Of a stretch of DNA of 64,000 nt, positions 22,565-59,675 are shown in pieces; position 1 is the first letter of the stretch, and the number at the start of each line of letters is the position of its first letter. The position numbers and the translations under genes are program-made. Location: positions 1 through 64,000 of the forward strand of contig SUUI01000003.1 of NCBI GenBank assembly GCA_015062605.1. Direction: 5' to 3'. The DNA comes from Eggerthellaceae bacterium (GTDB lineage: Bacteria > Actinomycetota > Coriobacteriia > Coriobacteriales > Eggerthellaceae). Under the pieces are notes generated by a model. It ran no database searches and was not told the DNA's origin. It was given only the letters and a program-made list of their open reading frames with translations.

Positions 22565-24826
22565 ATGGAAACAGAGGCCACTGCTACAGAGTTTCAGGCT
22601 TTGCTCGAGGCGCGAGGGGTTACGCGTCGTAGCTTCATGAAGCTTTGTGGCGCCATCGCTGCTGCCGCAGGCTTAAGCCAGCTTGCAGCTCCGAAGGTTG
22701 CGCAGGCTGTCGAGGATTCCGTGATTGGCGCTGCATCGGGCAAGCTTTGTCCGGCGATTTGGATTGAGGGCGCATCATGCACGGGATGTACGGAGTCGTT
22801 CGCGCAGGTCGACACGCCGGATCCGGCCACGGTCGTCCTTGAGATGCTTTCCTTGAACTATTCGGAGACTTTGTCTGCTGCTGCAGGCTATTCCATGGAA
22901 CAGGCTAAGGCCCAAACCATCGAGAAGTTCAAGGGCGAGTATATCCTAGTGTATGAGGGCGCCGTCCTCGAGAAGTGGGGCGGGCAAGCATTGCGTGTTG
23001 CAAACGAGCCAGGCACCAAGCATCTTCTTGAAGCTGCGCAGAATGCCAAGTATGTCGTCGCGTTCGGTTCGTGCGCGGTTAACGGCGGTTGGATGGGTGC
23101 AGAGCCGAATTCCTCCGACGCTCTCGGTGTATCGAAGTTCCTGAAGAAGAACGGTGTCGTTACTCCCGTCGTGAATATCCCCGGATGTCCTGGCAACCCC
23201 GAGCATCTCGTCGCCGTTCTTGTCGACGTATTGCTGGTGGGCAAGGTTCCGGAGCTCACCGCCGATGGCAAGCCGAAGCAGATCTTCGGCCAGACCATCC
23301 ATGACAACTGCGAGCGTCGCGGTCATTTCGAGAACGGCGAATTCGTTCGCCAGTTCGGTTCCGAAGAAGAGGCGAAGGGCTATTGCCTTTATGCTATGGG
23401 TTGCCGCGGTCCTCAGACCTATGCCAACTGCGGCGTGACGCTTTGGAACCACGGTCGCTCTTGGTGCGTGCAGGCTGGTTCTCCTTGCATCGGGTGCTGT
23501 GAGGCAGATCCCGATGATCCGAGCCAGAATTGGGTACAGGTCAACACGCCGTTCTACGAGCGTCATCGCGACCTTCGTATCGGCAGCATCGCATTCCAGC
23601 CGACTACTATCGCTGGCGGTATCACCGTTCTGGCCGCTGCCGCGCTTGCCGTTCATGGCTTCGGCATGAAGAAGACTGGCCGCACCGACGGTGGCGCTGA
23701 CTTTGAGAAGATCCGTAAGTGGGATGCTGAGCATCCCGATCAATCCATCGGCCAGTACAGCGATGCAGTCTGGGCTGAGGCGAAGGCTGCCCAAGTCGCG
23801 AAACCGGTCGAAGAAGCTGCCGCTCCCATAGCGGCTGCCATCGATGAGAAGGCTGCCGTAGGCGCTGCAGCTGCCGTAGGTACGGTTGCCGCCATTGCCA
23901 AGGGTGCATCCGATGATGCTCCTGGTTGGAAGACCGGCACCACCGAGGATGGCGTCGAGACCTTCGCCGAGGGTTACAAGCAGCTCTGGAACGACACCTT
24001 CAACGCCGGTTCCCAGCATGTCGCGAATTCCGTGACCGCCGATCTGACCGATCCGGATGCCGACAAGACGACTGGCTGGCGTGCAGGCACCGTCGGTGGC
24101 GAGGCTGCCGCGGAGTATGCTGCCACGCATGGTTGGCGAAACGGTACCGCTGGGTACGGCGAGACCTTTGAGGCATTCGCTGATAATCCCGGTGAGCTTT
24201 GGAAGACCACCTTCAACGCCGGTTCCCAGCATGTCGCGAATTCCGTGACCGCCGATTTGACCGATCCGGATGCCGATAAGACGACTGGCTGGCGTGCAGG
24301 CACTGTAGGTGCCGAAGGCATCGTTGCAGATGTCGAGGCTGCTGTCGGTAAAGTTGGCCAAGCCGCCGCAGGCTGGCGTGCCGCTTCCGTAGGAGCTGAC
24401 GGCATCGGCGTAGCCGACAATACGGCTGATTCTTTGTTCGAAGCTCTCACCAATGGCGGTCTGAGCCATTCCAAGGGCGCGGGTGCTGACCTCTCCACTG
24501 ACGGCATCGACAAAACCGTCGGTTGGCGTGCTGCTTCCGTAGGTGCTGATGAGGCCGCAGGCGACCTCGTTTCTGAGATTACCGAAGCGGTCAAGGATGC
24601 TGTTGCCGATATCGCGGTTCCCGCCGAGGCGCTGTTCAACAAGGGAATGGCTCACTGGCTCGGCGATGACGCTGTCGATGATTTCGTCTATGAGCCCGTA
24701 AAGGCTGTGGAACGTCAGATCTCCACGAATCCCGATGAGAGCATCTCTGCCGAGGCGCTGTTTAATGAGGGAATGGCCCACTGGCTCGGCAGCATTGCAG
24801 ATAAGCTGAAGGGAGGCGATGAGTAA
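22565..24826 (+). CDS. hyaA: [NiFe] hydrogenase small subunit with long repeat-rich C-terminal tail
   Basis: A 753-residue protein. Residues 1-45 are a Tat signal (RRSFMKLCG). The Fe-S core follows, with C72/C75 in EGASCTGCTESF, then SCAVNGGWMG, IPGCPGNPEH, HDNCERRGHF and GSPCIGCC, as in group 1 small subunits. A membrane anchor sits at about 349-368 (IAGGITVLAAAALAVHGFGM). Normal HyaA-type proteins end there at about 370 residues. Here some 385 more follow: an Ala-rich linker, then from residue 454 repeats with six GW[RK]-type modules and five L[FW]...G..H modules. By the usual topology the tail would be cytoplasmic. ATG 22565 has GAGGAGGTG; the gene overlaps hyaB by one base. Confidence 0.93.
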   Translation: METEATATEFQALLEARGVTRRSFMKLCGAIAAAAGLSQLAAPKVAQAVEDSVIGAASGKLCPAIWIEGASCTGCTESFAQVDTPDPATVVLEMLSLNYSETLSAAAGYSMEQAKAQTIEKFKGEYILVYEGAVLEKWGGQALRVANEPGTKHLLEAAQNAKYVVAFGSCAVNGGWMGAEPNSSDALGVSKFLKKNGVVTPVVNIPGCPGNPEHLVAVLVDVLLVGKVPELTADGKPKQIFGQTIHDNCERRGHFENGEFVRQFGSEEEAKGYCLYAMGCRGPQTYANCGVTLWNHGRSWCVQAGSPCIGCCEADPDDPSQNWVQVNTPFYERHRDLRIGSIAFQPTTIAGGITVLAAAALAVHGFGMKKTGRTDGGADFEKIRKWDAEHPDQSIGQYSDAVWAEAKAAQVAKPVEEAAAPIAAAIDEKAAVGAAAAVGTVAAIAKGASDDAPGWKTGTTEDGVETFAEGYKQLWNDTFNAGSQHVANSVTADLTDPDADKTTGWRAGTVGGEAAAEYAATHGWRNGTAGYGETFEAFADNPGELWKTTFNAGSQHVANSVTADLTDPDADKTTGWRAGTVGAEGIVADVEAAVGKVGQAAAGWRAASVGADGIGVADNTADSLFEALTNGGLSHSKGAGADLSTDGIDKTVGWRAASVGADEAAGDLVSEITEAVKDAVADIAVPAEALFNKGMAHWLGDDAVDDFVYEPVKAVERQISTNPDESISAEALFNEGMAHWLGSIADKLKGGDE
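23996..24303 (+). repeat. two near-identical 95-bp direct repeats inside hyaA
   Basis: Copies at 23996-24090 and 24209-24303 are offset by 213 bases (71 codons) and differ at only about three, mostly synonymous positions. They encode the stretch from FNAGSQHVANS through DPDADKTTGWRAG. Near identity at the DNA level points to a recent in-frame tandem duplication or ongoing conversion. Confidence 0.9.
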
Positions 24827-26526
24827 TGACTCGTTCAATCATCGATCCTATTACCAGAATCGAAGGTCACCTTCGTGTTGAAATGGAAGTCGAAGGCGGC
24901 GTCGTAACTGACGCTTGGGTGTCGGGCGGTTGCTTCCGCGGAATGGAGCTCGTCGTCGAGCACCGTACACCTGAGGATGCCGCGCAGATCGTCCAACGTA
25001 TCTGCGGCGTTTGCCCGGTCTCGCATTCCCATTCTTCCACGATTGCCGGAGAGAAAGCTTACGGCATCACCATTTCGAACAATGCTCGCCTCATCCGCAA
25101 CATGATCGAAGGTGCGCAGTTCCTGCATAGCCATATCCTGTGGCTGTACAACCTGTGCGCGCTCGACTACGTCAACCCGCTGCACGCTCTTGAAGCCAAT
25201 CCAGATGATGCAATGGCTCTCGCTAAGCAACTCGGTACTTCAACGAACAGCAATTTCGCAGCTCTCCAGGAGCGCCTGAAGAAGTTCGCCGCCAATGGCC
25301 AGCTTTCCATCTTCTCGGGCAACTGGTTCGATGCTGACGGCGGCGACGCATACAAGCTTCCCGCTGCAGGCGATCTGCTGTTGACCTCGCATTATCTGGA
25401 AGCCTTGACCATGCAGTCCAAAGCATCTGAAATCGCTGGTCTACTCGGCGGTAAGATGCCCCATGTCATGACCATCATCCCCGGCGGCACGGCATTCGTT
25501 CCGACCGCCGAGAAGCTCGATGACCTCCTGTTCCTCATCAGGGAACTCAAGGATTGGGTCGAGGGTACCGTCCTGCAAGATACCGTTGCCCTCGCAACCT
25601 ATTACCCGGATGTCTTCAAGTTCGGCAAGGGCGTTGGGCGTTACATCGCCTGGGGCGTTTTCGAAGGTCCCGATTGGCCGTATGGAAATGATTACACCGC
25701 GCAGATGGCTAATCGTTATATGCCGTCTGGTGTTGTCAATGACGATTTGAGCCTTGAGGATCCTATCGAGAACAACATCACCGAGTATGTCGGCCATTCC
25801 TGGTATCAGGGCGGTCAGACCTTCACGGCTCCGTACTTCACCACGCAACCGAACTTCACCGAGTACTACGAGAAGGATTCGGTCGGCGCAGACGGCATCG
25901 GCAAGGTTGCCGAGAAGTACACGTGGGTCAAATGCCCGCAGTACAAGGATATGCCGTACGAGGCCGGCGGACTTTCCCGCGTCCTCGCAGCGTATCTGCG
26001 TGGTGTGCCGTTCGTCGTCGAGCAGGCTAACGCTCTCATGAAGACTGCAGGCATCGGCATTCCCGAGCTGCAATCCACGCTCGGTCGTTCCGCAGTCCGC
26101 CAGATAGAGACCGTCTACATCGCCAACCTTATGGAGCAGTGGTGTCTCGAGCTTATCGAGGCTATCAAGGGTGGCGACTCCGAATTCTTCAAGGAGCCGC
26201 TTACCAAGACCGGTTCCGGAACGGGCTTCTGGGAAGCTCCTCGCGGTGCCCTTTATCACAGCGAGAAAGTCACCAACGGTCTCATCGATGGCTACCATAT
26301 CATCATCCCGTCGACATGGAACTTGGCTCCGCATAACGAGCGTGGCGAATACGGTCCGCTCGAGCAGGCGCTCATCGGCGTGCCGGTCGAGACCATTGAG
26401 AAGCCTATTAATGCTCTGCGTACCGTTCATAGCTTCGACCCGTGCACCGCATGCGCAGTGCATGTGACCGAACCGAAGACGGGCAAGACCTTCGAAACCG
26501 TCACCAGCCCTTGGGGGGTGAAGTAA
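24826..26526 (+). CDS. hyaB: [NiFe] hydrogenase large (catalytic) subunit
   Basis: A 566-residue protein with both nickel-binding motifs: the N-terminal RICGVCPVSHS and the C-terminal DPCTACAVH. Processing after the His would remove the last 15 residues (VTEPKTGKTFETVTS...), releasing the mature enzyme; hyaD nearby encodes the protease. It catalyses reversible H2 cleavage, in this type normally H2 uptake coupled to respiration. It should cross the membrane with the Tat-targeted small subunit. The start codon overlaps the hyaA stop, behind GGGAGG. hyaC follows one base later. Confidence 0.96.
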   Translation: MTRSIIDPITRIEGHLRVEMEVEGGVVTDAWVSGGCFRGMELVVEHRTPEDAAQIVQRICGVCPVSHSHSSTIAGEKAYGITISNNARLIRNMIEGAQFLHSHILWLYNLCALDYVNPLHALEANPDDAMALAKQLGTSTNSNFAALQERLKKFAANGQLSIFSGNWFDADGGDAYKLPAAGDLLLTSHYLEALTMQSKASEIAGLLGGKMPHVMTIIPGGTAFVPTAEKLDDLLFLIRELKDWVEGTVLQDTVALATYYPDVFKFGKGVGRYIAWGVFEGPDWPYGNDYTAQMANRYMPSGVVNDDLSLEDPIENNITEYVGHSWYQGGQTFTAPYFTTQPNFTEYYEKDSVGADGIGKVAEKYTWVKCPQYKDMPYEAGGLSRVLAAYLRGVPFVVEQANALMKTAGIGIPELQSTLGRSAVRQIETVYIANLMEQWCLELIEAIKGGDSEFFKEPLTKTGSGTGFWEAPRGALYHSEKVTNGLIDGYHIIIPSTWNLAPHNERGEYGPLEQALIGVPVETIEKPINALRTVHSFDPCTACAVHVTEPKTGKTFETVTSPWGVK

Positions 26527-26527
26527 C

Positions 26528-27277
26528 ATGGCGCATTTAGCACACTATCGTGAGGCTCATCCGCTGCCGTTCGTCATTACGCACTGGATCAACCTCATCA
26601 GCATGTTTTTCCTCATCATCACGGGCTTCATGATCCACTTCCCATTCTTCGGTGGATTGATGGGCGTTGTACGTGGTCTGCATGTCTTCTTCGGCATCGT
26701 GATCTTCGTCAACTGCATCGTCCGTATCATCATGTCCTTCTTCATCAAGTCCGCTCCGACAGCTGGTACGCGCGAGCAGGTTCCTGATTACAAGACTTGG
26801 CTGCCGCAGGCTGACAACAAGCACCAGGGTCCCGAGTGGGTTAAGTACTACCTGTTCATGAAGAAGGATCATCCGCTGTCCGCGAAGCTCGGCGTTCCGC
26901 AGAAGCTTTCCTATCTGCTGATCCCGATCCTGATCATCCTGCAGTTCTACACGGGTATGGCTCTGTGGGGACCGACGATGGACTGGGGCATCTTCGCTGT
27001 CGGCACCGACTTGGTCGGTGGTCAGATGAATCAGCGCGTCATCCACTACTTCCTGATGTACGTATTCATCATCTTCATCTTCATCCATGTGTATCTTGCT
27101 AACGTCGAGGGCACCGCTCCCACGAAGCTCATGTTCTTCTGGAAAGAGCATGGCGGACTGGTGTACGATCCCGAGAAGCATGTCATCGTAGGTGAGGACG
27201 ACCTGTCCGGAAACATCCGTATGCTTGAGGATGATGAAGTCGCCGAATTGATTGAAGAGGCGAACGAAGAAGCCTAA
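26528..27277 (+). CDS. hyaC: Ni/Fe-hydrogenase b-type cytochrome subunit
   Basis: A 249-residue protein with four transmembrane helices and histidines placed for heme b ligation (VITHWINLI in TM1, VRGLHVFFG in TM2, VIHYFLMY and FIHVYLAN in the C-terminal half). HyaC-type subunits pass electrons from the small subunit to quinone. A soluble acidic tail of about 45 residues ends the protein. It starts one base after hyaB and is followed by a strong terminator, so hyaABC form one transcript. Confidence 0.93.
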   Translation: MAHLAHYREAHPLPFVITHWINLISMFFLIITGFMIHFPFFGGLMGVVRGLHVFFGIVIFVNCIVRIIMSFFIKSAPTAGTREQVPDYKTWLPQADNKHQGPEWVKYYLFMKKDHPLSAKLGVPQKLSYLLIPILIILQFYTGMALWGPTMDWGIFAVGTDLVGGQMNQRVIHYFLMYVFIIFIFIHVYLANVEGTAPTKLMFFWKEHGGLVYDPEKHVIVGEDDLSGNIRMLEDDEVAELIEEANEEA

Positions 27278-27407: not shown

Positions 27408-27836
27408 ATGGGCCAACCGCTCACAGACGAACAGATTGCACGTGAGGAAAAATTCCTTGAAGGCATTCCGCGCATCAACATTGGCGCGTTGTTCCTCCCA
27501 CCCATCTGGGGTCCTGCTCATGGATTCTGGGTTACGATTCTTTTCTACCCCGCATGGCTGTTTGCCGATAACTGTTTCTATTCCGCGTATTCGGTGCATA
27601 ATGCTCCTTCGATCTTACTTGCCATCATCGTCTTTATCGTGCTTGTGGCAGCAACCGTCGTCTTCTCGATATTAGGTCAGCCCATTGCCGCCCATCGTGC
27701 GGCGGAACGGGGAAAGACGAAAGAGGAGTATCTGAGCACGCAACGCAAATGGGCGATTGGCTGTGTCATCGCTGGTATCATCATGATCGCGCTCGCCACG
27801 TATTACAATCTTTTCATTAGGGCGCCTTTCGCATAA
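27408..27836 (+). CDS. small membrane protein within the hydrogenase cluster
   Basis: A 142-residue protein with three hydrophobic helices. The motif IGALFLPPIWGPAHGFW leads into the first, with ILLAIIVFIVLVAATVVFSI and IGCVIAGIIMIALATYY after it. I do not recognise a named family. GGGGAAGGAGGCGAC precedes the ATG. It lies between the structural genes and the maturation protease, so an accessory role in hydrogenase assembly or membrane attachment is possible but not shown. Confidence 0.72.
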   Translation: MGQPLTDEQIAREEKFLEGIPRINIGALFLPPIWGPAHGFWVTILFYPAWLFADNCFYSAYSVHNAPSILLAIIVFIVLVAATVVFSILGQPIAAHRAAERGKTKEEYLSTQRKWAIGCVIAGIIMIALATYYNLFIRAPFA

Positions 27837-27863: not shown

Positions 27864-28418
27864 ATGATTGATCTGCCTGACAATGCATCGATGCAAGGCG
27901 AAAGCGTCACCTCATCGAGGAGATGTGCCATCATCTGTGTTGGCAATAAGCTCATGCTCGATGAGGGTATCGGACCAGCGGTTTACGAGGCGCTCCTCGA
28001 ACGCTATGAGATTCCCGATGATGTTTCCTGCTTCGATGTTGGTTGCATGAGCCTTGATATGCTTCCCGTAATCCGCGACTACGACTTCATCGTGACAGTA
28101 GATGCGGTCGATGGTACGGGTGAAGCACCTGGTACGGTGTTTCGGTTCCAGCCTGAAGATGTGGCACGGCATGCAGGTGCGATGGCATCGCTTCATGACA
28201 TGAAGCTCATCGACCTGTTCGATTCAGCTGCGTTATTGGGCTATGAGGCGCGTGGTGTGTGCCTCGGCATGCAAGTGCTCAATATGGAGCCTGCCGAATA
28301 TACCATCGGGCTGACCAAGCCAGTCTATGATGCTTTGCCTTTGCTCCTCGAAACCCTAGAGGCGGAGCTTTATCGCGAAGGGTTTATCCTGCGTAAGAAA
28401 AGTGAAGTTTCGGATTGA
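27864..28418 (+). CDS. hyaD: hydrogenase maturation protease HyaD/HycI family
   Basis: A 184-residue protein with the family motif GNKLMLDEGIGPAVYE near the N terminus, including the Glu/Asp that senses nickel, then CMSLDMLPVIRDYDFIVTVDAVD with a second conserved Asp, and LHDMKLIDL with the conserved His. It cuts the C-terminal peptide from the large subunit once nickel is inserted. Its substrate is presumably the product of hyaB, 1.3 kb upstream. AGGAG precedes the ATG. The last 30-40 residues are charged. Confidence 0.92.
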   Translation: MIDLPDNASMQGESVTSSRRCAIICVGNKLMLDEGIGPAVYEALLERYEIPDDVSCFDVGCMSLDMLPVIRDYDFIVTVDAVDGTGEAPGTVFRFQPEDVARHAGAMASLHDMKLIDLFDSAALLGYEARGVCLGMQVLNMEPAEYTIGLTKPVYDALPLLLETLEAELYREGFILRKKSEVSD

Positions 28419-49196: not shown

Positions 49197-49967
49197 TTAT
49201 ACGAAACGGTATGTTTGCATCATCTCGTTTGCGAGTTTCTTTTTGCGGCATGCATCGCATACTGCTTGCGCATCGATGTTTTTGTCGTCAGCAGCAAACG
49301 CAACCGATTCTTTTGTGCCCATGAGCGCCCCGCATTCAACGCAGAATTGTAGTTCGAACTCGCGGTTCCATATGGTGCGGGTCCTTTCCGCTTCGACATA
49401 GTCGATTGCGTTTGTCGGACAGACGTTTGCGCAGCTTAAGCATCCAACACAGAACGCAGATGGCTTATCGAATGGTGTGGATACCTTTTTGTCGATGCCG
49501 CGGTTCACGGTGCTGATGGCACCCGTGCCAAGGCTTGCGCATGCCTGCACGCATAAGCCGCACAGAATGCACTTCTCGTTATCGATGGTAACGAGGCGGT
49601 CAACGCCGTTCACATCGAGCGCAGCACCCATCTGGCCTATACCAGGCGCATCAGGGGCGCGGTGCGCGAGCAGGGCATATAGGACTGCCCGTTCTTCACG
49701 GATCTTGTTGCTTTGCGTGAAAATCTCACATTCGCCATCGATGGGGTAGACGCACGAGGTCACGATTTTCGTCCTGCCACGCTGTTTCAATTCGACGATG
49801 CAGATGCGGCAGCATGCGCGATGGTTGTCGAAGGCGTCGTGACGGCACAGCGTGGGGATGTAGATCCCGTTGCGTTTGGCTACGTCGAAGATGTATTCGC
49901 CCTTCTCGCAGGTGCATTCGATGCCGTCGATGGTGACGGTCAGCATCTTATTGTCGTTCACACTCAT
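49197..49967 (-). CDS. NuoG/HndD-like iron-sulfur subunit lacking a catalytic domain
   Basis: A 256-residue protein. An N-terminal [2Fe-2S] ferredoxin domain (CRHDAFDNHRACCRICIVE) is followed by cluster motifs CILCGLCVQAC and CVGCLSCANVCP. The end carries a four-cysteine group (CVECG and CDAC) instead of the H-cluster domain of HydA/HndD or the NuoG molybdopterin domain. It therefore acts as an electron wire. ATG 49967 has GGAGG at good spacing and overlaps the NuoF-like gene by four bases. In this operon it probably links the NADH-binding subunit to aldehyde oxidoreductase or ferredoxin. Confidence 0.88.
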   Translation of the reverse strand: MSVNDNKMLTVTIDGIECTCEKGEYIFDVAKRNGIYIPTLCRHDAFDNHRACCRICIVELKQRGRTKIVTSCVYPIDGECEIFTQSNKIREERAVLYALLAHRAPDAPGIGQMGAALDVNGVDRLVTIDNEKCILCGLCVQACASLGTGAISTVNRGIDKKVSTPFDKPSAFCVGCLSCANVCPTNAIDYVEAERTRTIWNREFELQFCVECGALMGTKESVAFAADDKNIDAQAVCDACRKKKLANEMMQTYRFV

Positions 49968-51760
49968 GACGGCCTCCTCTCGGTCAGCACGGCGTCGGCG
50001 TTGCACGCCTCGCGGCAGCTGCCGCATGCGATGCACTTGATAGGATCGATGACGTGCGCCTGCTTTCGCACTCCCGTAATCGCGTCGGCAGGGCAGGCGC
50101 GCTGGCACAGGCCACAGCCGATGCATTTGTCCGGATCGATGGCGAATTGCGTAAGCTTTGCGCACACGCCTGCTGGGCAACTTTTCTCGTTGATATGTGC
50201 TTCGTACTCGTTGCGGAAGAATTTGATGGTGGTGAGTACCGGGTTTGGTGCGGTGCGGCCGAGCGCGCACAAAGAGGCATCTTGCATCATGTGGCCGATA
50301 CGCTCCAGAAGCTCGATATCGCCATCTTTGCCACGACCTTCGCAAATGTCGGTGAGGATTTTGCGCATCTGCCGCAAACCCTCACGGCACGGAGTGCACT
50401 TGCCGCAGCTTTCCTCGCAAAGGAAGTCGACGTAATAGCGTGCTACCTCAACCATGCATGAGCGGTCGTCCATGACTATCATTCCGCCGGATCCCATCAT
50501 CGCTCCGTATTCGACGAGCGTATCGAAATCCACGGGCAGGTCAAGCAGTGATTCGGGGATGCAACCGCCCGAGGGGCCGCCCGTCTGTATGGCCTTGAAG
50601 GGGCGGTCGCCGATGATGCCTCCGCCGATATCGTAAATGAGCGTGCGTAGTGTCGTGCCCATTGGAACCTCGACGAGGCCTGTGTGCTTGACCTTACCGA
50701 CCATTGCGAACACCTTCGTGCCCTTTGATCTTTCAGTACCAAGTTCGGCATATTTCTCTCCGCCGTCGCGCAGGATGATGGGAATCGATGCGAGCGACTC
50801 TACATTGTTGAGCACAGTCGGATGATCGAACAGACCACGCTGTACGCTTCGGACATATTTTGCGCGTGGTTCGCCGACCTTGCCCTCGATTGACTGCATG
50901 AGTGCCGTTGATTCGCCACAGACGAAGGCGCCCCCGCCGCGGACGATGGAAAGATTGAGTTTGTGGTCGGTGCCTAAGATTGACTCACCGAGGATGCCAG
51001 CTGCGTACGCATCGTCGATGGCGTGCTGGATGTGGTCGCGTGCTAAGGCATACTCATCGCGGATATAAAGGATGCCTTCTTCGGCTTGGATGGCGAGTGC
51101 ACCGATGATCATGCCTTCGATGACTGCATGCGGGCAACCTTCCATCGTCGAACCGTCCATGAACGCGCCAGGGTCGCCCTCATCGCCATTGCAGACGATA
51201 TATTTAGGCCACTCATCATAGCTCGCTGCTGAGCGCCATTTGGTGCCCGTGGGGAAGCCTGCGCCGCCCTTGCCTCGCAAACCGCTTTTCTCAACCTCAG
51301 AGATGATCTCGTCCGGTGTCATGGTAAGCGCGCGTTTGAGGCCCTCGTAGCCGCCGCGTGCGATGTAGTCATCGATTGAAAGCGGGTCGATGATGCCGAC
51401 GTCCTTGAGCACGACCTTGTGCTGCAGTGCATAGTATGGGTTATCATCCATGTGCTCGAAAAACTCGCCGTCTCTCCTGAACATGAGCTTCTTTATCGGC
51501 TCACCCTCAAGCGAGTCGATGACGGCGGAAGCGTCCTTCGCGGAAACCCGATAGTACATGAGGTCGCGCGGCATGAAGCGCACGACCGGACCCTGCTCGC
51601 ATTCTCCCGAGCAGCCTGTGCGCACGACATCGATTGCAACATCGCCGGTTAGTTCGCGCGCGGCAAGTTCAGCCTCAAGTGCGGCGGCGACATCGAGTGC
51701 TCCGTTTGCAATGCAGCCTGTGCCGCAACAGACTAAGATCTTTTCGGTTCCGTTGATCAT
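49964..51760 (-). CDS. NuoF/HndC-like NAD(P)H-binding flavoprotein
   Basis: A 598-residue protein. The N-terminal thioredoxin-like [2Fe-2S] domain (VCCGTGCIANGA, TGCSGECEQG) is followed by the NuoF core with the FMN/NADH glycine-rich motifs GLRGKGGAGFPTGTKW and VCNGDEGDPGAF, and the cluster motif ESCGKCTPCREG. A C-terminal ferredoxin pair follows (CIGCGLCQRACP, CIACGSCREAC). The same layout occurs in electron-bifurcating HydB/HndC. No hydrogenase gene follows; the operon supplies an aldehyde oxidoreductase instead. Confidence 0.93.
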   Translation of the reverse strand: MINGTEKILVCCGTGCIANGALDVAAALEAELAARELTGDVAIDVVRTGCSGECEQGPVVRFMPRDLMYYRVSAKDASAVIDSLEGEPIKKLMFRRDGEFFEHMDDNPYYALQHKVVLKDVGIIDPLSIDDYIARGGYEGLKRALTMTPDEIISEVEKSGLRGKGGAGFPTGTKWRSAASYDEWPKYIVCNGDEGDPGAFMDGSTMEGCPHAVIEGMIIGALAIQAEEGILYIRDEYALARDHIQHAIDDAYAAGILGESILGTDHKLNLSIVRGGGAFVCGESTALMQSIEGKVGEPRAKYVRSVQRGLFDHPTVLNNVESLASIPIILRDGGEKYAELGTERSKGTKVFAMVGKVKHTGLVEVPMGTTLRTLIYDIGGGIIGDRPFKAIQTGGPSGGCIPESLLDLPVDFDTLVEYGAMMGSGGMIVMDDRSCMVEVARYYVDFLCEESCGKCTPCREGLRQMRKILTDICEGRGKDGDIELLERIGHMMQDASLCALGRTAPNPVLTTIKFFRNEYEAHINEKSCPAGVCAKLTQFAIDPDKCIGCGLCQRACPADAITGVRKQAHVIDPIKCIACGSCREACNADAVLTERRPS

Positions 51761-52851: not shown

Positions 52852-54663
52852 TTAATAGGTGATGCTCAACTCGTCGAGCTTCTCCTGCGTTGGAATACCC
52901 TCGGCAGTCCAGTTACGCTCGGCGTAGTATTCAGCTAGCATGGTCTGCAGCTGGCTGACCTTGCCCTTGGCCGGGCCAGAGGGGAGTGCCTCACGCAGAA
53001 GACGCGGAGGCAGCGTGTCCTTCTCGACGCCAGCCTCGATATTGAAGCGCTTCTCGAGGTTCCAGATACGCTCGCCCTTGAGCAGGATCTCTTCGTCTGT
53101 CTCGTCGCTTCCTACTGCTTCACGATACTGGCCTGCGATTTCAGGAAGGCCGATGCCGAAGGTTGTGAACAGGCATATGCCGGTGGAATCGCACAACGCG
53201 GTGAGGTCTTGGAAGAGCTTGAGCACAGCACCCTTGCCCTCGGCAACCTGCGGGTCGAGTTTCATAGGTATACCGAGCACTTCGGGGCTGATCATGTAGC
53301 CGCGGACATGGCATCCGCCGCGGTTAGAAGTGGCATACTCGAGTCCGATGCCCTGGATGGCGCGGCCGTCATAAGCTGGCATTTCCTGCTTCTTCGTGGA
53401 CATCGACAGCTCGGGATGTCCGTACTTCTCGGCAAGGCGATAGGAACCAAGTCCGATGATGTTGCCGAAACCTTCGCCGTCAGCGCACATCTGCGTGAGT
53501 TTGACCATGGCGGCAGCGTCACCGAAGCGAAGCGGGAAGCCGATGTCTGACTCGGGGATGGCACCCATCTCGAAGAGCTCCATGGCGCATGCCACGGTGG
53601 AGCCGAGAGTAATCGGGTCCATGCCCTGCTCGTTGCAGATGCAGTTGGCCTTGACAATGGCGGAGATGTCGTTCACGCCGCAGGCAGCGCCGTAGGACCA
53701 ACCAGCCTCATACTCGGGGCCCTCGCCGAAGCAGTCGAAATCGCCTTTGCCTTCTACCTTGGTCACACGACCGCACGCGATGGTGCAGCCGAAGCAGCCT
53801 TGGTTCTTGACAAGGTGGGTCTCGACGAGGCGCTCGCCCGATGTATCGTCTGCCTTATCCCAGAACGCACCGTCGCGGGCATTGCGGAGCGGTAGACCGC
53901 CGACCTCGTTGACGATGTTGACGAGGATCTCTGTTCCGAAACCAGCGAGGCCAGCACCGGTGACAGGATGCGCACGGAGCATATCGCGGGCCTTGATGGC
54001 TTCTTCCATGAATTCTTTCGGATGCGCGACGAATACGCTGCCCGTACCGCGCACAACAACGGCCTTCAGGTTCTTCGAGCCCATGACCGCGCCCATGCCG
54101 CCACGGCCTGCGGCGCGGTTCTTGTCGTTCATGACGCCCGCGAAGAGCATGCCGCGCTCGCCCGGGGTGCCGATGCACGATACTCGAACCTTGCCATGCT
54201 TTTCAACCAATGCGTCGGTGACTTCATGGACGCCCTTGCCCCATAGCTCATCAGCTGGGAGCAATTCGACCAAGTCATCATCGATATGCAGATAGACAGG
54301 CTTTGCAGCCTTGCCCTCGAAGATGATGCCGTCATAGCCGGCGTACTTTAGCTCGGGACCGAAATGACCGCCAGAGTTCGCCGCACCGATAATTCCAGTA
54401 AGCGGAGATTTCGAAACGACTTCGTAACGGCCAGATGAGCACGCTGCTGTGCCGGTGAGCGGGCCGGTCATGAAGATGATCTTGTTCTCGGGGGCAAATG
54501 GATCGACCTTCGGGTCGACTTCGTTGCAATAGTACTTTGTGCCCAAGCCACGTGCGCCGACATAATCCTTGGCGTCCTGCATGTTGAGCGGTTCCTTAAC
54601 AATAGTGCCTTCGGTCAGATTGATACGAAGTATCGTTCCGATCCATCCGTTTCCGCGTGTCAT
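52852..54663 (-). CDS. aor: aldehyde:ferredoxin oxidoreductase (tungsten type)
   Basis: A 603-residue protein. The N-terminal domain has [10 protein letters not shown] and the tungstopterin-binding [21 protein letters not shown]. Cluster ligands are C-x2-C-x3-C in [12 protein letters not shown] and a later Cys in [16 protein letters not shown]-family enzymes oxidise aldehydes to acids, or reduce acids, with a tungsten bis-pterin. It overlaps the upstream ferredoxin gene (TAATG) and is followed by moaD and NADH-module genes. Substrate is not deducible; no signal peptide, so cytoplasmic. Confidence 0.93.
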
Positions 54664-55139
54664 TATGCACACACCTCCTCGACAGCTGCTTTGAGCTTGT
54701 CTGCGGCGAGCTGCTTCTTATCGGGCACTTCGTCAGGGTCGACGAGGCTGATAGCACCAGTCGGGCAATTCCTGGCACACCAGGCTTCGCCCTCGCACAG
54801 ATCGCACTTGTGGATGATGCGCTTGGCAGGTGAGTACGAGATGTTGCCGAGCGGGCAGGCGCTTACGCACATCTTGCAGACAATGCAGCGGTTCGGATCA
54901 TGCGTGACCACACCGTCTGCCTGGCGCTTCAAGGCGCCAGTCGGGCAAATGCCCACGCAAGCGGCTTCATCGCACTGCAAGCACATGATGGGCACCGTGA
55001 TCGCTGCTTCTTCATAGTGGAAGACGCTCACGTTCGCAAGACGAGGATTGAACTCCTCGAAATGCCTGAAAGAGCACACAAGCTCGCACGTGCGGCAGCT
55101 TATGCACTTCTTCGGGTCTACGACTAACTGTTTAGCCAT
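54663..55139 (-). CDS. four-cluster ferredoxin partner of aldehyde oxidoreductase
   Basis: A 158-residue polyferredoxin of the DmsB/HycB type with 16 cysteines: [37 protein letters not shown] and [15 protein letters not shown]. It begins [12 protein letters not shown], behind GGGGG. First gene of the operon and overlapping aor, it should accept electrons from the tungsten enzyme. AorA-type ferredoxin subunits play this role in NAD-coupled aldehyde oxidoreductases. Confidence 0.9.
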
Positions 55140-56997: not shown

Positions 56998-57068
56998 AAG
57001 CCACCATGCATTACGCATGATCTCGGTATGTGAAAGGGAAGAGGAGGAAGAGAGAAAGGAGATGGAGT

Positions 57069-59675
57069 ATGTCATCAGGGAAAATAGCAGATAAGACGGT
57101 GTTGAAGAATCTTGGCTTCTGCGGTTTCGCGATCAATTCGAACACTTCGTGCGTAGATGTCAAGGACGGCAGGATCGTGCGAATCAGGCCGCTGCACCTC
57201 GATGAGTCGTACACCAAGGAAGAGCTCAATTACTACTATCTTGAAAAAGATGGGCACGTATTCGAGCCTGGATTCAAGACGTTGATTCCGCCGTTCTCGA
57301 TTGCGTACAAGAATCGCGCATATTCTGGGAACCGCGTGCCCTCACCGCTTATCCGTGTGGATTGGGACCCGAAGGGCGAGCGCAACCCGCAGAATCGCGG
57401 CATCTCGAAGTATCGCAAGATATCATGGGATGAGGCGCTCGAGATCATATCCGATGAGATCAAACGTATTCACGATGAATACGGGAATCATTCCATCTAT
57501 TGCCAAGCCGAGGGTCATGGTGAAGGCAAGGTTGCATCCGGCGCTCATGGCTGCCCGCAGGAAATGCTTGCATATTGCGGTGGTTCGACCATCCAGGCGC
57601 GCCAACCTGACAGCTGGGAAGGTTGGTACTGGGGCGCCAAGCATATGTGGGGCATGGAGCCTCTCGGGCAATGCACATCCGCTAATGGCACTTTCCGTGA
57701 TATCACGCAAAATGGCGATGCCGTATTGTTCTGGGGCTGCGATCCCGAGACAACCACGTGGGGCTGGAACGGCCAACAGCCTTCGCGCATGTGCTTCTGG
57801 TTCAACGAGATCGGTGTGAAATCGATTTATGTTTGTCCTGACGTCAATTATGGTGCTGCCTGCCATGCCGACAAGTGGATTCCTGTTCTGCCTAATACCG
57901 ATGCTGCTTTGCAGCTTGCTATCGCGTACGTGTGGCTTACCGAAGATACGTACGACAAGGAATACATTGCAACGCATGCCGTCGGGTTCGAATGGTTTGA
58001 GCAGTATGTATTAGGCGATCTTGACGGAGAGCCTAAGACGCCGAAATGGGCAGAAGGCAAATGCGGCGTTCCCTCGTGGGAGATCAAAGCATTTGCTCGC
58101 TATTGGGCTAAGCACAACGTGTCGACCGCTCATAGCAATGGCGGCGGTTTCATACGCGGTGCATTCGCCCATGAGCCCGCACGTCTCGAAGTTGCTTTGC
58201 ATGGTATGCAAGGTATCGGCGGTCCAGGCAAGCATCAGATCAAATTCATCGAATGGACGATGCTCGGAATGCTGTCGATGTCGCCACTTCCCGAGCCTGT
58301 CTTCGTCCCATCGAATGAGGCGGCTTACCATGGCTGGGATCTTGCTGGCGAGGAGCCGAACCGCCACATCATCAAGACGCTTATACCGCAGGCAATCCTC
58401 AATCCGCCGATTAGTTGGTACGGCCATGGTATCTGCACGTATCCACGCGAGGATCAGTTCTTTAAGTTCCAGTTCCCGCGTGAAGGCGAAGAGCGCTTGC
58501 ATATGATCTGGGCGGATGCACCATGTTGGTCCACATGCTGGAACGGTGGCAACATCTATGAGGAGGCTTTGCGCCACGAATCCATCGAATTCGTTCTCGT
58601 GCAGCATCCATGGATGGAAAACGATACGGTTTTCGCCGATATCATCCTGCCTGTGAAGACCGTCTTCGAATGCAGCGATATCACGACGGATAGCCTTGCT
58701 GGGCAGTTCCCGCTGTACTACGTGGAGGACGTTGCGATAGACCCAGTCGGTGAGGCACGTTCGGATGCTGAGATTGTGGCCGATATTGCAGGTGCCCTCG
58801 AGCGCTTTGGCGGGAAGTACGAGGGCCTTCGCAACAAATTCATGAGAGGTATGACCCACGAGGAGACGATTCGCAAGGCTTTCGATGAAAGCGGCATCCC
58901 TGAAGACTTCACATGGGAAGACTTGATGGAGAAGAAGTTCTGGGCGGGTCCCGTCAATCCGGATTGGGAGAATACGCCTGCGGGCCTCATCGCTTTCCAT
59001 GATGATCCTGAATCGAACAAGCTCCAAACGCCTTCAGGCAAAATCGAATACTATTCCTCGACGCTTGCGCGCTTCTTCCCGGATGACGATGTGCGCGGTC
59101 CGTATCCCAAGTGGATCGAAGAGACCGAAGAGCATAAGGAACGCATCTCAAGCGAGCGTGCGAAAGACTATCCATTCCTGCTCGTTACCAACCATCCGCG
59201 CTGGCGCGTGCATGCTCAAATGGATGACGTCCCCTGGTTCCGCGAAATCGAGACCTGCAAGGTTAAGGGCCCCGATGGGTATATGTATGAGCCTATCTGG
59301 GTGAACCCCGTCGATGCCGAGAAGCTTGGATTGGAAAATGGCGATATTGCACGCTTGTTCAATGAGCGCGGCAGCGTCCTTGGCGGAGTTAGAGTGACCG
59401 AGCGCATCATGCCAGGTGCGTTGTACCAAGACCATGGTGCCCGCATCGACTCGATCGTCGCTGGTACTGGCGGCTTGGATCGCGGCGGAGCGAATAACCT
59501 CATCTGCCCGAATGCCACGACTTCCAAGAATGCCGCAGGAGAAGTGACGAATAGCTTCCTGGTCGGCATCGAGAAAGTCTATGTCAAAGCGCTTGCTGAG
59601 CAGTATCCCGAGCAATTCGGGCGTGCTTATGACGACGTCAACGGCTTGCTCGCCAAAGCCTACATCGAGGATTAG
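57069..59675 (+). CDS. transhydroxylase-like molybdopterin enzyme, large subunit
   Basis: An 868-residue DMSO-reductase-family protein. The N terminus has only two cysteines (FCGFAINSNTSC), so the [4Fe-4S] cluster found in most relatives is lacking, as in pyrogallol-phloroglucinol transhydroxylase. Blocks include IRVDWDPKGERNPQNRG, SWDEALEIISDEIKRIH, GDAVLFWGCDPETTTWGW, and late GLENGDIARLFNERGSV. There is no signal peptide. ATG 57069 follows AAAGGAGATGGAG. Its partner gene has the transhydroxylase-beta layout. A phenolic substrate is likely; identity is open. Confidence 0.83.
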   Translation: MSSGKIADKTVLKNLGFCGFAINSNTSCVDVKDGRIVRIRPLHLDESYTKEELNYYYLEKDGHVFEPGFKTLIPPFSIAYKNRAYSGNRVPSPLIRVDWDPKGERNPQNRGISKYRKISWDEALEIISDEIKRIHDEYGNHSIYCQAEGHGEGKVASGAHGCPQEMLAYCGGSTIQARQPDSWEGWYWGAKHMWGMEPLGQCTSANGTFRDITQNGDAVLFWGCDPETTTWGWNGQQPSRMCFWFNEIGVKSIYVCPDVNYGAACHADKWIPVLPNTDAALQLAIAYVWLTEDTYDKEYIATHAVGFEWFEQYVLGDLDGEPKTPKWAEGKCGVPSWEIKAFARYWAKHNVSTAHSNGGGFIRGAFAHEPARLEVALHGMQGIGGPGKHQIKFIEWTMLGMLSMSPLPEPVFVPSNEAAYHGWDLAGEEPNRHIIKTLIPQAILNPPISWYGHGICTYPREDQFFKFQFPREGEERLHMIWADAPCWSTCWNGGNIYEEALRHESIEFVLVQHPWMENDTVFADIILPVKTVFECSDITTDSLAGQFPLYYVEDVAIDPVGEARSDAEIVADIAGALERFGGKYEGLRNKFMRGMTHEETIRKAFDESGIPEDFTWEDLMEKKFWAGPVNPDWENTPAGLIAFHDDPESNKLQTPSGKIEYYSSTLARFFPDDDVRGPYPKWIEETEEHKERISSERAKDYPFLLVTNHPRWRVHAQMDDVPWFREIETCKVKGPDGYMYEPIWVNPVDAEKLGLENGDIARLFNERGSVLGGVRVTERIMPGALYQDHGARIDSIVAGTGGLDRGGANNLICPNATTSKNAAGEVTNSFLVGIEKVYVKALAEQYPEQFGRAYDDVNGLLAKAYIED

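Follow-up and report, generated by a model that had tools for sequence, protein, structure and literature searches.

An apparently genus-specific repeat tail on the [NiFe] hydrogenase small subunit of an Eggerthellaceae bacterium

Gene content of the locus

The window, by which is meant the whole analyzed stretch of 64,000 nucleotides, contains a hya gene cluster with the following features (evidence in brackets).

22565..24826, + strand: hyaA, [NiFe] hydrogenase small subunit, 753 aa (translation, Pfam, NCBIfam)
22622..22642, + strand: twin-arginine motif TRRSFMK, residues 20-26 of HyaA (sequence; TIGR01409 at 19-48)
23600..23668, + strand: C-terminal transmembrane anchor, residues 346-368 with approximate limits set by eye (sequence; hydA match stops at 363)
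24811..24816, + strand: Shine-Dalgarno sequence GGGAGG for hyaB; in the hyaA frame it codes for part of the KGGDE end (junction comparison)
24826..26526, + strand: hyaB, [NiFe] hydrogenase large subunit (PF00374, E=2.5e-149)
26528..27277, + strand: hyaC, cytochrome b subunit (PF01292; TIGR02125 match under its curated cutoff)
27408..27836, + strand: small hydrophobic protein of 142 aa, within the hya cluster (no family above cutoff in Pfam or NCBIfam)
27864..28418, + strand: hydrogenase maturation protease, HyaD/HybD type (PF01750, TIGR00072)

Translation of 22565-24826 gave 753 residues and a stop, and the frame is free of internal stops. Pfam placed Oxidored_q6 at residues 72-221 and NiFe_hyd_SSU_C at 241-318, while the NCBIfam models for hydA (TIGR00391, above cutoff) and for the Tat signal (TIGR01409) matched residues 10-363 and 19-48, respectively. 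Residues C72, C75, C170, C208, H246, C249, C274, C280, C289, C308 and C311 are invariant across 30 aligned sequences and, from what is known of the family, are presumably the cluster ligands. A helix at residues 346-370 in a low-quality AlphaFold model of the full chain coincides with the anchor. The domains, the Tat signal and the adjacent genes for a large subunit and a b-type cytochrome identify the product as a group 1 small subunit of the HyaA type. Its membership in the Eggerthellaceae, its closeness to the HyaA proteins of that family and the literature fit an assignment to HydDB group 1i. The genome from which the window derives (G000; 1.7 Mb, 98% complete) has a single hyaA copy.

At the hyaA-hyaB junction the stop codon of the first gene overlaps the start codon of the second (TAATG, 24824-24828), and GGGAGG or a close variant was found upstream of hyaB in most of the 99 listed junctions. 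Since the end of hyaA both overlaps the start of hyaB and encodes its Shine-Dalgarno sequence, the hyaA frame is tied to the next gene. The C-terminus conserved among Eggerthellaceae HyaA (KGGxE or EGR) is a case of nucleic acid constraint resembling a protein motif: it was rejected as a conserved protein motif because it is mostly the hyaB Shine-Dalgarno sequence, translated in different frames.

Elsewhere in the window, genes for the following redox proteins were identified, which are possible redox partners in the metabolism of the organism.

49964-51760, - strand: NuoF-like NADH-binding iron-sulfur protein
52852-54672, - strand: aldehyde:ferredoxin oxidoreductase
57030-59675, + strand: molybdopterin oxidoreductase with a pyrogallol-hydroxytransferase-like N-terminus

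Architecture and topology of the HyaA tail

HyaA continues for 385 residues past its anchor. The first of these (369-405) form the proximal segment; an Ala-rich linker follows (406-450), and the repeats take up 451-753. The tail is rich in Ala, Gly and Asp.

23669..23779, + strand: proximal cytosolic tail (residues 369-405), which bears DFEKIRKWDAEHPDQSIGQY, a motif conserved across the family (alignment of 30 Eggerthellaceae HyaA)
23780..23914, + strand: Ala-rich linker, residues 406-450; compared with the HyaA of a second species (L033), it differs by an in-frame indel of 18 nt close to its start
23915..24823, + strand: apparently genus-specific repeats, residues 451-753, as three ~62-residue units and then two short ALFN[KE]GMAHWLG units
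23924..24109, + strand: repeat unit 1, GWK...LWNDTFNAGSQH...GWRAGTVG (unit alignment)
24131..24322, + strand: repeat unit 2, GWRNGTAG...LWKTTFNAGSQH...GWRAGTVG (unit alignment)
24371..24556, + strand: repeat unit 3, GWRAASVG...LFEALTNGGLSH...GWRAASVG (unit alignment)
24629..24664, + strand: ALFNKGMAHWLG module
24755..24790, + strand: ALFNEGMAHWLG module

The earlier note had described a Tat-targeted small subunit running about 385 residues past its anchor and carrying, from residue 454, GW[RK] modules (six) and L[FW]...G..H modules (five). On the first point translation, Pfam and NCBIfam agree, and the full tail also occurs in a second species; the module positions were also confirmed, with GW[RK] at residues 454, 504, 523, 575, 603 and 653 and the L[FW]...G..H modules starting at 474, 545, 624, 690 and 732. 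Of the former, a codon-level scan found five GWR copies of the pattern GWRx[AG][TS][AV]; the sixth is a GWK. Tandem Repeats Finder returned no row for the tail, the copies probably being too diverged or too far apart. Two long repeat copies (23984-24109 and 24197-24322) are identical to each other at 112/126 nt, as against 106/126 and 102/126 nt between each copy and its orthologue, which suggests gene conversion or recent re-duplication.

In small subunits of the HyaA/HybO type the tail following the C-terminal Tat anchor is cytosolic. By this standard topology of Tat tail-anchored small subunits the HyaA tail probably lies in the cytosol, in support of what the earlier note had supposed. A role in biogenesis, whereby the tail would hold a maturation factor or chaperone until cofactor insertion or help to set the Tat stop-transfer point, would suit a Tat substrate whose anchor is a C-terminal helix, which is the family topology (PMC10924467), and a gene that sits with those for HyaB, a b-type cytochrome and a maturation protease. 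Such a role is nevertheless very unlikely: other Eggerthellaceae HyaA do without the array, no extra gene accompanying the tailed HyaA was seen in the hya operon, and a tail that stays after export would be an odd site for a proofreading signal.

AlphaFold modeling of the tail (three sequences, a shallow alignment) gave a mean pLDDT of 34 and no confident domain, and the full chain (30 close sequences) gave 42. The known core was modeled poorly too, so the low tail pLDDT is uninformative and is not taken as disorder. Within the alignment of the ~62-residue units the W, L, G and H positions are fixed, and the charge-hydropathy index puts the repeats near the boundary, slightly on the folded side. 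Both observations would agree with the three units forming a folded repeat domain, with a ligand or metal bound through the recurrent W and H. This reading is improbable in view of the lack of matches in Pfam, NCBIfam and PDB sequences, the histidine of the fifth L[FW] module lost in L033, and the presence of the motif in single copies within low-complexity regions of other proteins, more in keeping with a linear motif than with a domain; the missing AlphaFold domain is a weak point against it, given the shallow alignment. The L[FW] modules were also considered as membrane-binding amphipathic helices, an idea that was dropped on their hydrophobic moments (0.03-0.21, against a tail mean of 0.16).

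Distribution of the tail

A HyaA match was found in 127 of the 138 family genomes. In 95 distinct complete Eggerthellaceae HyaA from outside the genus the post-anchor tail has 35-141 residues (median 56) and no GW[RK], whereas within the genus it has 385 and 391 residues. The yardstick used in the earlier note, of about 370 residues ending shortly past the anchor, was therefore too short for this family. Most of the family tails consist of GMKxxGRxDGGADFExxRxWDxxHPxxSIGxY or a close variant, a variable stretch and then mostly KGGxx or EGR; both their length and their sequence past the proximal motif vary among genera. The part that the genus has in common with other Eggerthellaceae is the proximal segment of about 35 residues (DFExxRxWDxxHP) only. 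The repeat array was thus inserted between two constrained pieces, the proximal segment and the Shine-Dalgarno-coding end.

A tree built from 67 HyaA cores groups the genus as one clade, next to three HyaA of other Coriobacteriia MAGs, whose tails are 55-105 residues long and lack GW[RK]. Gain of the array on the stem of the genus is therefore the simplest reading.

Searches of 138 family and 396 phylum genomes with an HMM of the repeat unit recovered the genus itself and weak matches only, one of them in G118, and searches with the tail found no match in phage and plasmid collections and a single weak one (in genome G118) in a class-wide sample of 398. The earlier note had known of no description of such a tail, and this stood: Pfam, NCBIfam and PDB sequences hold no match to it, and the accessible text of the openly licensed literature holds no description of such a small-subunit tail or of the GWR motif. 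Its proposal that homologous tails be sought on other Coriobacteriia hyaA genes, as a sign of a conserved module, had the opposite outcome, the array appearing confined to one genus among the genomes searched.

Conservation and selection

The second species (G092/L033) carries the full tail on a protein of 759 aa with 90% identity, and in a third genome (G091/L034) the tail is in frame as far as the contig end. In public records these sister genomes are listed as the Eggerthellaceae bacterium isolates RGIG2580, from goat jejunum, and S2M_St_28. Between the two complete tail copies, both from a single genus, there are no frameshifts, and the sole length change is one of six residues near the linker start. 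The dN/dS values between the two species were 0.04 for the core, 0.20 for the linker and 0.18 for the repeats, while the proximal segment (371-405) has zero amino acid changes at a dS of 0.6. The in-frame copies in relatives, the low dN/dS and the frame tied to hyaB together indicate that the tail is maintained as protein-coding sequence. Judged by these comparisons it is not an assembly artefact and is kept by purifying selection, and it may be retained in the mature protein.

Neither species has lost any of the six GW[RK] or of the three long L[FW] modules. Changed residues amount to 2/36 in the GW motifs, 4/36 in the L motifs and 52/231 in the spacers, synonymous change being similar; when the motif mask was shifted circularly, only 7 of 303 placements gave so few changes, which is modest support (about 2-3%). 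The five L[FW]...G..H modules of the earlier note are all present in HyaA, but the fifth has lost its histidine in L033, where it reads KGMSRWLG.

The main rival to a functional array is that the tail represents a tolerated, weakly constrained in-frame repeat expansion, with little function beyond solubility, in a segment in which family tails vary freely. The differences among genera in tail length (35-141 aa) and in sequence past the proximal motif would be expected from it, as would the Ala/Gly/Asp-rich composition, the homogenized or re-duplicated long copies and a constraint about four times weaker than that of the core by dN/dS. We regard it as rather unlikely, for a dN/dS of 0.18 is far under neutrality, the spacers have changed more than the motifs have, and the motif is also carried by unrelated proteins of relatives.

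The GWR motif in other proteins

In G118 (genus g44) the weak match is to a stand-alone protein, Ala-rich and apolipoprotein-like, with the C-terminus EEAAKPVTGWRSGTVGGKEASE. The same genome encodes a membrane protein with DEEAAKPVYGWRTATAGG close to its N-terminus (membrane call by eye or from a weak domain match) and a polyphosphate kinase, identified by Pfam (L245:1300-4737, C81), whose long E/P-rich C-terminal tail contains GWRSATA, GWRFATA and GWRSATA. This kinase tail has a basic aromatic end, KRRGFFSRLFGRK. The motif was also seen in four more g44 genomes (G115, G114, G116 and G112). Related Ala-rich proteins of G115 and G114 end in the variant GWRNAGTAR. By eye or from weak domain matches, an ABC-2-like membrane protein of G116 has GWRSGTAR near its C-terminus, with a matching hit in G124, and a membrane protein of G112 with a zinc-ribbon-like N-terminus has GWRSATA. 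The Ala-rich, apolipoprotein-like family (L175-L196, L206-L212) occurs in several Eggerthellaceae genera; a few of its members end in the GWR motif, and in many the sequence [RK]DLDGDG.IG, which is EF-hand-like, lies close to the C-terminus.

Codon-level scanning of G118 gave 9 matches against 2 for the reversed control (0 + 2), and 5 of the 9 are in frame, in the polyphosphate kinase, the apolipoprotein-like protein and the membrane protein. The window's own genome gave 7 matches (5 of them in HyaA) against 1 in the reversed control. Motif counts in other g44 genomes were about equal to control counts, so that single occurrences there could be due to chance and it is G118 that carries weight. 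No second GWR protein besides HyaA was found in G000, which weakens a shared-partner model there, and a class-wide sample of 358 genomes yielded no further clear GWR carrier beyond G000 and G124.

Weak GWR matches reading GWRSGSAGALQAQG..FKS proved to be translated tRNA-Val (tac) genes, as ARAGORN confirmed at 11/11 loci checked; such frames (L219, L221-L223, L225-L228, L230, L231, L243) are a trap for tryptophan-motif searches. Other pattern matches were short frames and were judged spurious.

The seven-residue pattern GWRx[AG][TS][AV] is common to HyaA and unrelated g44 proteins, where it lies in low-complexity segments predicted to be cytosolic, and its origin could be convergent. On this basis we propose a group of GWR-motif tail proteins, to which HyaA would belong. 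A more far-reaching reading, which we think unlikely, is that it is an undescribed bacterial docking motif, by which some gut Eggerthellaceae would gather unrelated proteins (the hydrogenase, the polyphosphate kinase and the apolipoprotein-like and membrane proteins) at a single partner or condensate in the cytosol, the HyaA tail being the most multivalent client.

Proposed role of the tail

The motifs are more conserved than the spacers and the motif recurs on unrelated proteins, so the tail behaves like a multi-copy binding region. This lends partial support to the earlier note, which had named partner binding, clustering of the enzyme and maturation as possible roles. The explanation that we favor, and to which we would give roughly an even chance, is that the tail serves for multivalent docking in the cytosol through its array of short linear motifs, and it is predicted to tether or cluster the hydrogenase on the inner side of the membrane. 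The array would have been gained in frame on the genus stem between the proximal tail and the Shine-Dalgarno-coding end; it would form a flexible cytosolic tail whose aromatic/arginine motifs may dock onto a cytosolic partner or onto each other, with repetition lending avidity, and such docking would hold or gather the membrane-bound enzyme.

Group 1i hydrogenases, which are expressed in the sheep rumen (PMC6776011), may act as H2 sinks, with a role yet to be settled (PMC5037454, PMC6776011). A cytosolic tail under selection would provide a handle for finding what such an enzyme attaches to. If GWR were a docking tag, it would constitute a new bacterial short linear motif that could be tested with peptides.

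Comparison with known systems

With its Tat signal, iron-sulfur domains, C-terminal anchor and hyaABC plus protease gene order, the protein resembles group 1i HyaA (PMC5037454). Identity to other Eggerthellaceae HyaA is mostly 60-77% over about 400 residues, and the proximal tail and the end carrying the hyaB ribosome binding site are common to them. It differs from the other HyaA of the family in its 385 post-anchor residues, as opposed to 35-141, and in a repeat array seen in this genus only. What appears to be new here, by these sequence comparisons, is a known enzyme type carrying a genus-specific, selected repeat tail.

In CsoS2 and EPYC1, repeats of a short motif make up multivalent, disordered scaffold tails. 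The HyaA tail is like them in working principle only, in that short-motif copies are separated by low-complexity spacers; the array differs in being borne by a membrane-anchored enzyme. The tail of the G118 polyphosphate kinase has the same GWR motif (three copies) in a low-complexity context, but its spacers are of Glu/Pro instead of Ala/Gly/Asp, it lacks the L[FW]...G..H modules and it belongs to another genus.

A survey of Tat tail-anchored proteins admitted only those whose helix is at most 50 residues from the C-terminus (PMC10924467). HyaA resembles the proteins of that set in combining a Tat signal peptide and a single C-terminal helix on one chain. It differs from them in the ~385 residues following the helix, which place it beyond the 50-residue limit, so that a protein of this kind would be missed by design; HyaA suggests that a Tat substrate is able to keep some 385 cytosolic residues, outside the definition used there.
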